A DNA stretch of 64,000 nt from Curvibacter sp. CHRR-16 (lineage in GTDB: Bacteria > Pseudomonadota > Gammaproteobacteria > Burkholderiales > Burkholderiaceae_C): positions 1-64,000 of the forward strand of contig NZ_JAHCSH010000002.1 of the NCBI RefSeq assembly GCF_018474005.1. Reading direction: 5' to 3'. The translations under genes and the position numbers were made by a program. Within the stretch, counting starts at the first letter, position 1. Every line of letters starts with the position of its first letter. The notes beneath the pieces are model-generated. The model ran no database searches. It had not been told where the DNA came from and was given only the letters and a program-made list of their open reading frames with translations. Of the stretch, positions 7,659 to 33,546 are shown one piece after another.

Positions 7659-8774
7659 TCAACCACGGCGGGTTTGCACCGCTTGCGACAGCACGCTGAG
7701 CACCGTTTCTGAGTCATCCCAGCCCAAGCACGCATCGGTGATGCTGGTGCCATAAGCCAACTTGCTCGGATCGTCTTTGCCGGGTGTGAACTTTTGGGCG
7801 CCCGCGCACAAATGGCTTTCCACCATCACCCCAAAAATGCGGTGCGAACCACCCGCCACTTGGGTGGCAATGTCTTTGGCCACATCCAATTGGCGCTCGT
7901 GCTGCTTGCTGCTGTTGGCATGGCTGCAATCAACCATCAGCGTTTCAGGCAACTTGGCTTTGGCCAGCTCAGCACAGGCAGCGGCCACGCTCTGGGCATC
8001 GTAATTGGGGGTTTTGCCGCCACGCAAGATGACGTGGCAATCGGGGTTGCCTTGGGTTTGCACAATCGCCACTTGGCCGTTTTTGTGCACCGACAAGAAA
8101 TGGTGACCACCTGCGGCTGCTTGGATCGCATCGGTGGCGATTTTGATATTGCCATCGGTTCCGTTCTTAAAGCCAATGGGGGCAGACAAACCGGAAGCCA
8201 ACTCGCGGTGCACTTGACTCTCAGTAGTGCGTGCACCAATGGCACCCCAGCTGATGAGGTCGCCCAAATACTGGGGCGAAATCACATCCAAAAACTCGCT
8301 GGCAGCAGGCAAGCCTAAACGGTTGATCTCCATCAGCAACTGGCGAGCGATGCGCAGGCCTTCGTCGATGCGAAAGCTCTCATCCAAATACGGGTCGTTG
8401 ATGAGCCCTTTCCATCCCACGGTGGTGCGGGGTTTCTCGAAATACACGCGCATGACAATTTCCAGCGTGTCCTTGTACTGCTCGCGCAGCACCTTGAGGC
8501 GGCGTGCGTAATCCACGGCGGCTGCGGGGTCGTGGATGGAACAAGGGCCGATGATGACCAGCAGCCTGTCATCCTTGCCCGCCATGATGCGGTGGATGGT
8601 CTTGCGCGTGTCGGTCACCAGCTTTTCCATGGCCGTGCCGCGGATGGGGAAGAAGCGGATCAGGTGTTCGGGAGGAGGCAACATGGTGATGTCCTTGATA
8701 CGGGCGTCGTCGGTCTGGCTGGTGCGATCGGCAGGTTGCTGCTGGCCTGCCCAAGCGGTTGCTGCGTCTGTCAT
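7659..8774 (-). CDS. aroG: 3-deoxy-7-phosphoheptulonate (DAHP) synthase, class I AroFGH type
   Basis: The enzyme condenses phosphoenolpyruvate with erythrose 4-phosphate, the first committed step of aromatic amino acid synthesis. The 371 residues are slightly longer than E. coli AroG (about 350) because of an N-terminal extension rich in Ala/Gln. Family signatures are IGPCSIHDP, MRVYFEKPRTTVGWKGLINDP in segments, GARTTESQVHRELASG, SHANSSKQ and the C-terminal SITDACLGW. It is preceded by a leader peptide and attenuator (8800-8930), implying control by charged aromatic tRNAs. The feedback type (Phe, Tyr or Trp) cannot be read from sequence; the symbol is for the family. Confidence 0.95.
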   Translation of the reverse strand: MTDAATAWAGQQQPADRTSQTDDARIKDITMLPPPEHLIRFFPIRGTAMEKLVTDTRKTIHRIMAGKDDRLLVIIGPCSIHDPAAAVDYARRLKVLREQYKDTLEIVMRVYFEKPRTTVGWKGLINDPYLDESFRIDEGLRIARQLLMEINRLGLPAASEFLDVISPQYLGDLISWGAIGARTTESQVHRELASGLSAPIGFKNGTDGNIKIATDAIQAAAGGHHFLSVHKNGQVAIVQTQGNPDCHVILRGGKTPNYDAQSVAAACAELAKAKLPETLMVDCSHANSSKQHERQLDVAKDIATQVAGGSHRIFGVMVESHLCAGAQKFTPGKDDPSKLAYGTSITDACLGWDDSETVLSVLSQAVQTRRG

Positions 8775-8799: not shown

Positions 8800-8829
8800 A
8801 AAAAAAAACCGCCGGGGGTGCCGGCGGTT
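8800..8829 (-). terminator. Attenuator: intrinsic terminator in the DAHP synthase leader
   Basis: On the minus strand the stem CCGCCGG / CCGGCGG (8827-8821 with 8815-8809), extended by A-T pairs, has a five-base loop and is followed by nine T's (8808-8800). It lies after the leader peptide stop and 25 bases before the synthase ATG. An identical CCGGCGGT segment inside the leader ORF (8881-8874) can pair with the 5' arm (8828-8821), forming a competing antiterminator. Confidence 0.9.
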
Positions 8830-8861
8830 GGGTGTCTGGGTACTTTTCTGTCTTGGTACGT

Positions 8862-8930
8862 TCAGACCTCTCGACCGCCGGTGCAGCCAGAGAACCAAAA
8901 GTAACCAAAGAAGAAAGATGTCTTGAACAT
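8862..8930 (-). CDS. Aromatic amino acid leader peptide (22 residues) controlling DAHP synthase
   Basis: The ATG at 8930 opens a 22-codon frame starting MFKTSFFFGYFWF and ending at TGA 8862-8864. Seven of residues 3-13 region are control-type aromatics: five Phe plus Tyr and Trp between residues 6 and 13. The sequence ACCGGCGGT in codons 17-19 is the antiterminator arm. A ribosome stalled at the Phe/Tyr/Trp codons would leave this arm free to pair with the terminator's 5' arm, allowing read-through; a ribosome reaching the stop would cover it and permit termination. No good Shine-Dalgarno is seen; an in-frame TTG three codons upstream is an alternative start. The tldD stop lies 24 bases upstream of the ATG. 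Confidence 0.85.
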   Translation of the reverse strand: MFKTSFFFGYFWFSGCTGGREV

Positions 8931-8954
8931 GGGGTTCAATGTAGCACAACTTTT

Positions 8955-10427
8955 TTACGCAGTACCACCGACGGTTAAACCATCGATGCGCAAGGTGGGT
9001 TGCCCCACACCGACGGGCACGCTTTGGCCTTCTTTGCCACAGGTGCCCACACCGCTGTCCAGTGCCAAATCGTTGCCAATCATGGACACCTTCTTGAGGC
9101 TTTCGGGGCCACTGCCAATGAGTGTTGCGCCCTTGACGGGGTACTGAATCTTGCCGTTTTCCACCCAATACGCTTCGCTGGCCGAGAACACAAACTTGCC
9201 ACTGGTGATGTCCACCTGACCACCGCCAAAATTGACTGCGTACAGGCCCTTCTTGATGCTTTGCACGATCTCTTGCGGGTCTTTGTCTCCAGCCAGCATG
9301 TAGGTGTTGGTCATGCGCGGCATGGGCAAATGGGCATAGCTCTCACGGCGGCCATTGCCCGTGGGTTTGACACCCATGAGGCGCGCATTCATGTTGTCTT
9401 GGATGTAGCCACGCAAAATGCCATCTTCAATGAGCACAGTGCGCTGGGTAGCATTGCCTTCATCGTCTACGTTGAGCGAGCCACGGCGGTTGGCAATGGT
9501 GCCGTCATCGAGTACCGTCACGCCCTTGGCAGCTACGCGCTGACCAACACGACCACTGAATGCACTGCTGCCCTTGCGGTTGAAGTCGCCTTCCAAGCCA
9601 TGGCCTACCGCCTCGTGCAGCAGCACGCCAGGCCAGCCGTTGCCCAGTACCACCGTCATTTCGCCAGCAGGCGCAGGGCGGGCATCCAAATTGGTCAATG
9701 CCGCGTGCACAGCCTGATCCACGTATTGGCTGATTTGCTCTGGACTGAAATAGGCCAAACCAAAACGCCCACCACCGCCACCGGAACCCACTTCGCGGCG
9801 GCCGTTTTTCTCGGCAATCACGGTAACGGACAAACGCACCAAGGGGCGCACGTCGGCTGCCAAGGTGCCATCCGCACGGGCCACCAGCACCACGTCGTAT
9901 TCACTGGCCAAGCCGGCCATGACCTGCACCACACGCGGGTCTTTGGCGCGGGCGAGGCGCTCCACTTCTCCCAGCAAAGCCACTTTGGCGGTGCTGTCTA
10001 GGCTGTCGATGGGGTCTAGCGCACCATACAAACTGCGGCTCTTGGCAATCTTGCTTGCTATCTTTTTACTAGCAACCTTAGCGCGTCCATCTTGGCCTGC
10101 AGCCGCAATAGTGCGTACGGTTTGGGCTGCATCAAGCAGTGATGCAGCCGATATGTCATCCGAATAAGCAAAGGCGGTTTTCTCGCCCGCTACGGCACGC
10201 ACACCCACCCCTTGGTCGATGGAGAAAGATCCGGTTTTGACAATGCCCTCCTCCAAGCTCCACCCCTCGCTGCGGGTGTATTGGAAGTACAGGTCTGCAT
10301 CATCCACCTTGTGCTGCTGGATGACAGCCAGCGCCCGGTGCAGGTCTTGTTCATCCAAACCAAAAGGAGATAGCAACAAATGCTTGGCCGTTGCCAGCCG
10401 TTCAAGAGTAGGTTCACGCGCAATCAT
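8955..10427 (-). CDS. tldD: TldD metalloprotease subunit
   Basis: TldD, with PmbA/TldE, forms a zinc protease that processes small peptides such as microcin B17 precursor and CcdA. The start [11 protein letters not shown] gives 490 residues, close to the family. The HExxxH zinc motif is HEAVGHGLE (271-276), preceded by the conserved NGWPGVLL; the glycine-rich [11 protein letters not shown] stretch (213-223) is also typical. Residues about 116-130 ([16 protein letters not shown]) are encoded partly by a short palindrome (10055-10075). PmbA is not in the window. Confidence 0.95.
10055..10075. repeat. Palindrome TTGCTA-N9-TAGCAA inside tldD
   Basis: Six-base arms (10055-10060 and 10070-10075) flank a T-rich spacer within the coding sequence, where they encode part of the Lys/Ala/Ser-rich stretch of TldD. 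It resembles the GCTAT...ATAGC elements elsewhere in the window and may be a copy absorbed into the reading frame. Confidence 0.4.
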
Positions 10428-32692: not shown

Positions 32693-33546
32693 TGCCATTG
32701 CAAGACATACCTGTACCTTTGTGGATCGCTTTTTGGGGATTTATTGGTTTACTTATTGGCAGTTTTTTGAATGTCGTGATTCATAGATTGCCGCGCATGA
32801 TGGAAGAAGAATGGAAAGCTGAGTGCCAGCAATTCATCAACCCCGAAGCCCCTCGCACAAGCGTAACCATCAGCCTGCTGCACCCACGCTCACGCTGCCC
32901 GCATTGTGACCATGCGATTCAGTGGTACGAAAATATTCCGTTGGTGAGCTATGTGATGTTGCGTGGACGATGCTCTGCTTGCAAACAACCGATTAGCACG
33001 CGCTACCCCATAGTAGAACTAATCACCGCCGGGTTATTCGCTTGGTGTGCAGCGCAACATGGCTACAGTGCAGCCTGTGTGCTATGGAGTATTTTTGCAG
33101 CAGCGTTGCTGTCATTGGCGTTGATTGACTGGGATACCACGCTACTGCCGGACAGCATTACCTTGCCCTTGCTCTGGCTTGGGCTGATTGGTGCAGCTTT
33201 GGGCTGGAGCTCCAATTCTTTATTGCCCCACTTCTGGGGAGCGGTTGTTGGGTACACCTCTTTGTGGAGCATTTACTGGGCTTTCAAGCTCCTCACTGGC
33301 AAAGAAGGTATGGGGTTTGGTGACTTCAAACTATTTGCAGCACTTGGAGCATGGTTTGGTTGGCAAGCCTTGTTGCCTATTATTCTGATGGCGTCCATAG
33401 TCGGCTCTGTCGTTGGGTTGATACTCAAACTCAATGCTTCACTCAGGCCAGGGGGCTACATCCCATTCGGCCCCTTTCTAGCTGGCGGCGCTTTTGCCTG
33501 TCTCTTTCTAGGGCCCCAAACCATCATGATGGGTATTGGCTTGTAG
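32692..33546 (+). CDS. pilD: Prepilin peptidase / N-methyltransferase PilD
   Basis: PilD cleaves and N-methylates type IV prepilins in the inner membrane. The 284 residues include the cytoplasmic zinc site CPHC...CSAC (from PHCDHAI and SACKQPI) and the two aspartyl motifs (DWDTTLLPD and GMGFGDFKL). The ATG at 32692 overlaps the pilC stop. It is followed nine bases later by coaE. Confidence 0.96.
   Translation: MPLQDIPVPLWIAFWGFIGLLIGSFLNVVIHRLPRMMEEEWKAECQQFINPEAPRTSVTISLLHPRSRCPHCDHAIQWYENIPLVSYVMLRGRCSACKQPISTRYPIVELITAGLFAWCAAQHGYSAACVLWSIFAAALLSLALIDWDTTLLPDSITLPLLWLGLIGAALGWSSNSLLPHFWGAVVGYTSLWSIYWAFKLLTGKEGMGFGDFKLFAALGAWFGWQALLPIILMASIVGSVVGLILKLNASLRPGGYIPFGPFLAGGAFACLFLGPQTIMMGIGL

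Follow-up and report, generated by a model that had tools for sequence, protein, structure and literature searches.

A Phe-, Tyr- and Trp-rich leader upstream of the DAHP synthase gene aroG in Curvibacter and other Burkholderiales is a probable ribosome-mediated transcription attenuator

The minus-strand gap between tldD and aroG in the stretch of Curvibacter sp. CHRR-16 DNA analysed here (64,000 nucleotides, referred to as the window) carries what we take, with a probability of about 0.92, to be a ribosome-mediated transcription attenuator of the trp/phe type controlling aroG, which encodes DAHP synthase. This reading, which comes from sequence comparison and modelled RNA folding, draws on conservation in relatives, selection at the codon level, coevolution of two competing pairings (2:3 and 1:2) against flat controls, and folding with a ribosome placed at different positions. 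The locus combines a short leader open reading frame (ORF) rich in codons for the pathway end products, an intrinsic terminator between this ORF and the structural gene, a mutually exclusive antiterminator (2:3, subject to the equilibrium caveat given below) and a 1:2 protector pairing that overlaps the control codons. The mechanism would be an ordinary one with very strong support from sequence, and we found no account of it for this gene and lineage. Its features, all on the minus strand, are:

8938..8946, minus strand: extended -10 promoter element TGC-TACATT (sequence reading and alignment of relatives)
8862..8930, minus strand: leader ORF MFKTSFFFGYFWFSGCTGGREV, TGA included (relatives in 70 of 80 loci)
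8892..8915, minus strand: aromatic control codons 6-13, F F F G Y F W F (sequence and codon counts)
8845..8916, minus strand: predicted 1:2 protector hairpin of the ribosome-free RNA, limits approximate (free-RNA fold and swap test)
8874..8881, minus strand: region 2 core CCGGCGGT, codons 17-19, a copy of the terminator 3' arm
8821..8881, minus strand: predicted 2:3 antiterminator hairpin, CCGGCGGT..GTCTG..GTAC / GTAC..CAGAC..ACCGCCGG (folding and swap test)
8807..8829, minus strand: 3:4 intrinsic terminator stem-loop, 9 bp (folding, terminator scan and alignment of relatives)
8800..8808, minus strand: run of nine T's, the U-tract (sequence)
7659..8774, minus strand: aroG, type I DAHP synthase, the putatively controlled gene (TIGR00034, PF00793)

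The gap opens where tldD (NF008006, same strand) ends at 8955 and runs through the leader ORF, the hairpin and its T's to the aroG ATG at 8774. A first-pass annotation, made from the sequence of the window, had marked a 22-codon Phe/Tyr/Trp-rich leader frame, which is present as described, with its ATG at 8930 and its TGA finishing at 8862. The same annotation placed after it a perfect 7-bp GC stem with nine T's, 25 bases before the aroG start; the T's and the spacing are right, but the stem (AACCGCCGG-CACCC-CCGGCGGTT, 8829-8807) has 9 bp, of which seven are G-C. It had further noticed that a segment inside the leader at 8882-8874 duplicates the 3' arm of the terminator and is complementary to the 5' arm, and ACCGGCGGT indeed stands there. 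The aroG product scores 544.9 bits against TIGR00034 (cut-off 173.2) and 320.7 bits against PF00793 (cut-off 25.5), and falls narrowly below the AroG equivalog NF006723 (565.3 versus a cut-off of 568). Two DAHP synthase genes were found in the genome, aroG and a paralogue 59% identical to it, whose 300-nt upstream region contains no aromatic ORF.

In the mechanism that we propose, transcription would start at or beside the leader ATG, and a ribosome would load on the 5' end of the RNA and trail RNA polymerase. When Phe-, Tyr- or Trp-tRNA is uncharged, the ribosome would stall in the F/Y/W block, prevent the 1:2 pairing and leave region 2 (codons 17 onwards) free to pair with region 3, the 5' arm of the terminator, so that polymerase would continue into aroG. 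With charged tRNAs the ribosome would reach the stop codon and cover region 2, 3:4 would form and transcription would end at about 8800. An RNA free of ribosomes would form both 1:2 and 3:4, and transcription would likewise end. That the peptide is made, where transcription starts, that it terminates, the order of folding and which amino acid matters most are all points that we infer.

Of 80 loci of relatives (aroG 67-87% identical), 70 have a comparable leader and terminator ahead of aroG, a result that together with the retention of the aromatic codons described below bears out the conservation that the first-pass annotation had proposed to check. Leader-bearing records include Rhodoferax, Acidovorax, Variovorax, Hydrogenophaga, Comamonas and Polaromonas, as well as Limnohabitans, Rubrivivax, Rhizobacter, Roseateles and Solimonas. 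Among the 80 loci, one (L028) had just 49 nt upstream, and nine in which the leader is absent were set aside (L053, L054, L056, L057, L059, L060, L075, L077 and L080). The comparisons below use 71 close leaders, in four of which the frame or start was chosen by hand (L016, L045, L049, L072); two are divergent (L045, L062), and three have an uncertain start codon (L048, L062, L069).

A covariance model (R1) was built from 64 of the 71 leaders with the terminator as sole structure, omitting near-duplicates or odd starts (L008, L013, L016, L041, L048, L062, L070). Searched against 250 genomes of the order, it gave 64 full-length matches, 61 of them directly upstream of DAHP synthase: 57 precede a listed, co-oriented DAHP synthase by at most 400 nt, four more (L225-L228) were recognised on inspecting the sequence, and the remaining three (L229-L231) are not upstream of one. 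None of the 28 partial matches tested is upstream of DAHP synthase; matches were placed for 92 of 112 rows, the omitted 20 being all partial with E above 0.003. The 61 leader genomes span 14 family labels and count among them the genome of the window and at least two from which R1 drew training sequences (L099/L033 and L102/L069); the set of 250 overlaps in part with the 80-locus set.

Of the 189 genomes with DAHP synthase, 145 were listed, 57 of them with a leader match and 88 examined without one; four more leader genomes were confirmed beyond the 145. The 89 upstream regions of these 88 genomes contain no aromatic ORF followed by a terminator. Counted per nine codons, aromatic codons number four or more in all 71 leaders against a maximum of two in the 89 regions when a terminator is required, although three regions reach five or six without one (L145, L147, L188). 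Screening the same regions by F/Y/W content only gave scores up to 2.8 that overlap those of weak true leaders, and was replaced by the combination of density and terminator. Presence and absence are thus well separated among the genomes examined, and presence is patchy in the order. In a class-wide sample of 274 genomes, full-length matches outside the window's family came from two genomes of one other family, which lies outside the order (L127 and L128), with the leader upstream of DAHP synthase in both.

Composition by itself would have been a poor guide. The leader ORF ranks second in aromatic content among the 2721 short ORFs (12-45 codons) of the window; first is MDRFLGIYWFTYWQFFECRDS at 32720-32785 on the plus strand, which is embedded in another frame of a longer ORF resembling, in our own naming, a prepilin peptidase, and which serves as a chance example and a warning against judging leaders by composition. 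Aromatic content alone was therefore dropped as evidence, and we judge the leader real because of its conservation in relatives.

Codon usage within the conserved leaders is more telling. In the eight-codon block ending at the last aromatic codon, F/Y/W make up 79% of codons in frame 0 versus 23% and 17% in the other frames, figures that are biased upward in that the block is defined so as to make position 0 aromatic and loci were partly picked by F/Y/W content. Within this block the ratio of TTY to TTR is 279:0 in frame and 133:51 and 77:120 in the other two frames; in-frame codons starting with TA comprise 110 TAY and no stops, and those starting with TG comprise 62 TGG, three TGY and no TGA. 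We do not think that choosing loci by F/Y/W alone would explain the total lack of TTR. Phe is encoded by TTT in 62% of cases in leaders vs 21% in aroG, an excess that may reflect selection for weak structure or for slow decoding.

The pairings expected of an attenuator are stable and have coevolved. In the window, folding energies are -26.6 kcal/mol for the 62-nt 2:3 segment (z -6.3, 0 of 200 shuffles as stable), -16.3 kcal/mol for the terminator (z -4.1, 0/200) and -44.3 kcal/mol for the whole 131-nt leader (z -2.9, 2/200). The 2:3 hairpin consists of ACCGGCGGT pairing with the terminator 5' arm, extended by GTCTG:CAGAC and GTAC:GTAC. We compared each leader's own pairing partners with partners swapped between leaders, on non-overlapping segments of 68 of the 71 leaders (without L008, L013 and L070), using 10000 permutations in a model that leaves out phylogeny. 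Region 2 with its own spacer and 5' arm beats all 10000 permutations (z -7.4), the distal part of 2:3 outside the invariant core gives z -6.4, and the 1:2 pairing (aromatic block with the downstream 60 nt) gives z -6.9 (0/10000). Reversed-sequence and aroG-segment controls are flat, with z between -0.9 and +0.2 (+0.2 and -0.7 for the 1:2 controls), and the aromatic block with region 3, intended as a control, also beats swapped partners (z -2.7 and -3.4), so some weaker signal is present there. Tested against just the 5' arm, region 2 shows a weak advantage over swapped partners (z -2.1, 190/10000), because that arm hardly varies. Across 64 sequences, 96.9% of cells in the terminator stem are paired, and covariation within it, where the arms barely vary, amounts to just one pair with changes on both sides.

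Region 2 is conserved as RNA and not as peptide, since its GGCGG core is kept while the reading frame through it shifts: the core stands in frame 0 in 48 of the 71 leaders (reading GGREA and similar), in frame 2 in 16 (AAGEA, PAEER and similar) and is absent in seven. A GAGAG-like segment follows GGCGG in 60 of 64 leaders, six of these segments overlapping or following the stop codon.

Folding with a modelled ribosome (footprints of 11, 13 and 15 nt, all 71 leaders) was carried out for the moment before arm 4 of the terminator has been made. With the ribosome stalled in mid-block, arm 3 is paired upstream in 71/71 leaders at all three footprints; with the ribosome at the stop codon, it is paired upstream in only 4, 3 and 2 of 71 (11, 13 and 15 nt, respectively). 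A stall at the last aromatic codon gives a footprint-dependent result (69, 60 and 40 of 71), and with neither ribosome nor arm 4, 42 of 71 leaders already pair arm 3 upstream (0.46 in the window). The last aromatic codon ends 6-12 nt before the region 2 core in 60 of the 68 leaders with an exact complement of at least 5 nt. At equilibrium with the full leader, the window itself forms 2:3 when the ribosome stalls at the last aromatic codon (P(3:4) 0.10), 3:4 when it sits on the stop codon (0.97), and 3:4 also after a middle-codon stall. When the whole terminator is allowed to equilibrate in relatives, P(3:4) in the stalled state drops below 0.5 in only 5/71 and the terminator wins in most; equilibrium folding of the full leader, which gives no switching in most relatives, was accordingly abandoned as a model of the switch in favour of folding before arm 4. 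The switch would therefore rest on 2:3 forming first during transcription, as the classical trp attenuator likewise needs. Together with the coevolution of the pairings, these modelled positions agree with the first-pass proposal of exclusive 2:3 and 3:4 pairings in an attenuator on DAHP synthase.

Upstream of the ORF we found a feature beyond those of the first-pass annotation, an extended -10 element 6-8 nt before the start codon. A TACATT-like hexamer ends at this distance in 63 of the 71 leaders, with TG one base ahead of it in 62 of the 63, and the arrangement TGCTACATT-N5-9-ATG occurs twice in the 3.45-Mb genome. A sigma-70 scan requiring a -35 box reports no promoter at this site. From the position of the element, the transcription start is predicted at about 8930-8931, at or within about 2 bases of the leader ATG, and the leader mRNA is thus probably leaderless. 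A Shine-Dalgarno match of at least 3 nt is absent in 52 of the 71 leaders, 17 having 3 nt and two having 4. There is a precedent in the Sinorhizobium meliloti trpL leader, for which the relevant sections of PMC7298713 report a leaderless start.

Elsewhere in the same genome, the region upstream of trpE (contig C3, upstream of 604736) shows TGCTACACT, then seven bases, then a 28-codon ORF MFIHRIRTTGCSDRGAWPWRRCVVVPAH with W-P-W. By appearance it is another leaderless attenuator leader, with promoter and ATG arranged in the same way; it has no Rfam match. The prephenate dehydratase gene of the genome seems to start four bases after the preceding stop, which would leave no room for a leader.

The first-pass annotation went on to propose that the first step of the shikimate pathway responds to the combined charging of Phe, Tyr and Trp tRNAs. 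Here, Phe and Tyr make up the conserved core of the leader in the sequences compared, whereas control by all three amino acids would be an extension from codon content. The 71 close leaders encode F+Y+W in 59 cases, F+Y in nine, F only in two and F+W in one; a wider set of 35 leaders, from the order plus one family outside it, encodes all three in 19, F+Y in 15 and F in one. Tyr codons accordingly occur in 68/71 close and 34/35 wider leaders and Trp codons in 60/71 and 19/35. Aromatic residues average about 30% of the 71 leaders.

We tentatively propose, at somewhat less than even odds, that in many Burkholderiales entry into the shikimate pathway is run by a leaderless attenuator that replaces the TyrR/TrpR control of enteric bacteria and combines the charging states of Phe-, Tyr- and Trp-tRNA as an OR gate, and that with the trpE leader sharing its layout it forms part of a set of leaderless attenuators on the aromatic pathway. 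A narrower version, in which the same attenuator senses starvation for Phe alone, or for Phe and Tyr, with the Trp and perhaps the Tyr codons as passengers, is distinctly possible although improbable on balance. It fits the predominance of Phe codons (306 F, 114 Y and 63 W in the 71 leaders), the lack of Trp in 16 of the 35 wider leaders and the behaviour of the Corynebacterium aroF leader, whose Phe-Tyr-Phe answers under Phe limitation in the account given in PMC11802643; it sits less well with the presence of all three amino acids in 59/71 close relatives, with the placement of TGG just before the last aromatic codon in 44/71, near the modelled limit at which a stalled ribosome leaves region 2 free, and with Trp codons in two leaders outside the order.

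The dense and strongly conserved aromatic block might instead mean that the peptide itself acts, through nascent-chain arrest that senses a free aromatic metabolite or as a small protein in trans, as the attenuator leader peptide peTrpL is reported to do in the relevant part of PMC7298713. We consider this quite unlikely, as the residues past the block vary with the frame (PGGREASA, TAAGEASA, RPAEER) over a constant RNA core, six leaders stop right after GG, and F and Y interchange inside the block. Still less probable is that the hairpin is a mere tldD terminator and the small ORF a by-product of T-rich intergenic DNA. In its favour, tldD precedes the leader in the same orientation in the window, a tldD was also found ahead of it in 51 of 70 relatives, and the aromatic score alone is not unusual within the window. 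Yet 19 of the 70 loci keep leader and terminator with no tldD detected in the sequence retrieved, and another 13 keep them with tldD ending about 640-1100 nt away; the absence of TTR codons in frame, the conserved -10 element just before the leader and the coevolving pairings argue against it as well. The terminator would also suit an untranslated element (a riboswitch, T-box or protein-binding attenuator), but the probability of one is close to negligible: coding selection is seen within the ORF, the three Rfam matches around the site (E up to 5) include no T-box or riboswitch, and 20 relatives show none at gathering scores.

Attenuator leaders are known to control pheA, trpE and pheS, and the DAHP synthases of E. 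coli are under the control of the TyrR and TrpR repressors. The E. coli pheA and pheST leaders, in which a Phe-rich leader peptide is combined with alternative pairings, resemble the present leader in both respects, but they control pheA or pheST and not a DAHP synthase. Rfam Phe_leader (RF01859) scores 23.7 bits at the site versus a gathering score of 55, no leader match reaches the gathering score in 20 relatives, and neither Rfam nor the protein-family libraries offer a family name for the leader. Among attenuators on DAHP synthase, that of aroR-aroF in Corynebacterium glutamicum has its source study, reportedly, in Neshat et al. 2014. The sections of PMC11802643 and PMC4046766 that deal with it describe, as here, an aromatic leader peptide upstream of a DAHP synthase gene, with a Phe-Tyr-Phe leader and read-through on amino-acid shortage; PMC11802643 also names pheL and pheST attenuation. 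The Corynebacterium aroR leader differs in belonging to an actinobacterium, in having a short F-Y-F described under Phe limitation, and in that those sections mention no Trp codons, whereas the leaders described here usually carry F, Y and W.

A second relative is the uORFC-13-1 motif of Acholeplasma aroF, presented in the relevant part of PMC8632094 as a prediction only, from 24 sequences of Acholeplasma and environmental DNA: a small ORF with Phe codons, then a terminator, upstream of DAHP synthase. It shares with the present leader the small ORF and terminator before the gene, but differs in its predicted ribosome-binding site and in a Phe content of at least one codon; the same source also mentions a hypothesis for E. 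coli aroF. The S. meliloti trpL is, like the leader here, an attenuator leader ORF with its ATG at the RNA 5' end, but it is a Trp leader upstream of trpE(G) with a reported leaderless start where ours is deduced (PMC7298713, in the sections concerned). The open-licence literature, as far as it was covered, gave no account of this aroG leader, and older predictions (Vitreschak 2004, Merino's attenuator database) could contain it. The kind of mechanism is familiar, and on DAHP synthase it is known in Corynebacterium and predicted in Acholeplasma; the present leader is unusual in its three amino acids and has a probable leaderless start. In Ralstonia solanacearum, deleting one of two DAHP synthase genes raised the reporter of the other 10-20 fold, as related in the pertinent part of PMC6379268; this would be consistent with starvation control.

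DAHP synthase governs entry into the synthesis of all aromatic amino acids, and a widely conserved RNA element before its gene (61 of the 250 genomes of the order, the window's own included, under 14 family labels) would read tRNA charging directly. Annotators gain a small gene and an RNA family absent from Rfam, engineers of Comamonadaceae and related hosts gain a natural sensor of aromatic starvation, and the weighing of three amino acids by one leader becomes testable.

Several individual records add to this picture. A Solimonas record (L049; Gammaproteobacteria, placed in Nevskiales in the NCBI taxonomy) carries the leader, which, with the two genomes outside the order mentioned above, suggests transfer or an older origin. 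Three leaders (L004, L038 and L025, the last two from records titled Aquabacterium) have His codons among or in place of the aromatic ones, for example MRTTVRYHFWHFHIQHLTGAGVANA and MSTVRFYFSRFHLPPHTGAGVANC, and a different region 2 (CCGGCGCAGGAGTGG). A scan of viral contigs gave nine DAHP synthase relatives. The Cupriavidus copies L053 and L056 (77% and 76%) are without a leader, and in one genome (G217) R1 matches before a less similar DAHP synthase (62%) and not before the 77% copy. The leader can thus sit on different paralogues. In two further genomes, tandem DAHP synthase pairs lie behind one leader (G211:C1:2562309-2564623 and G081:C1:2636369-2638699).
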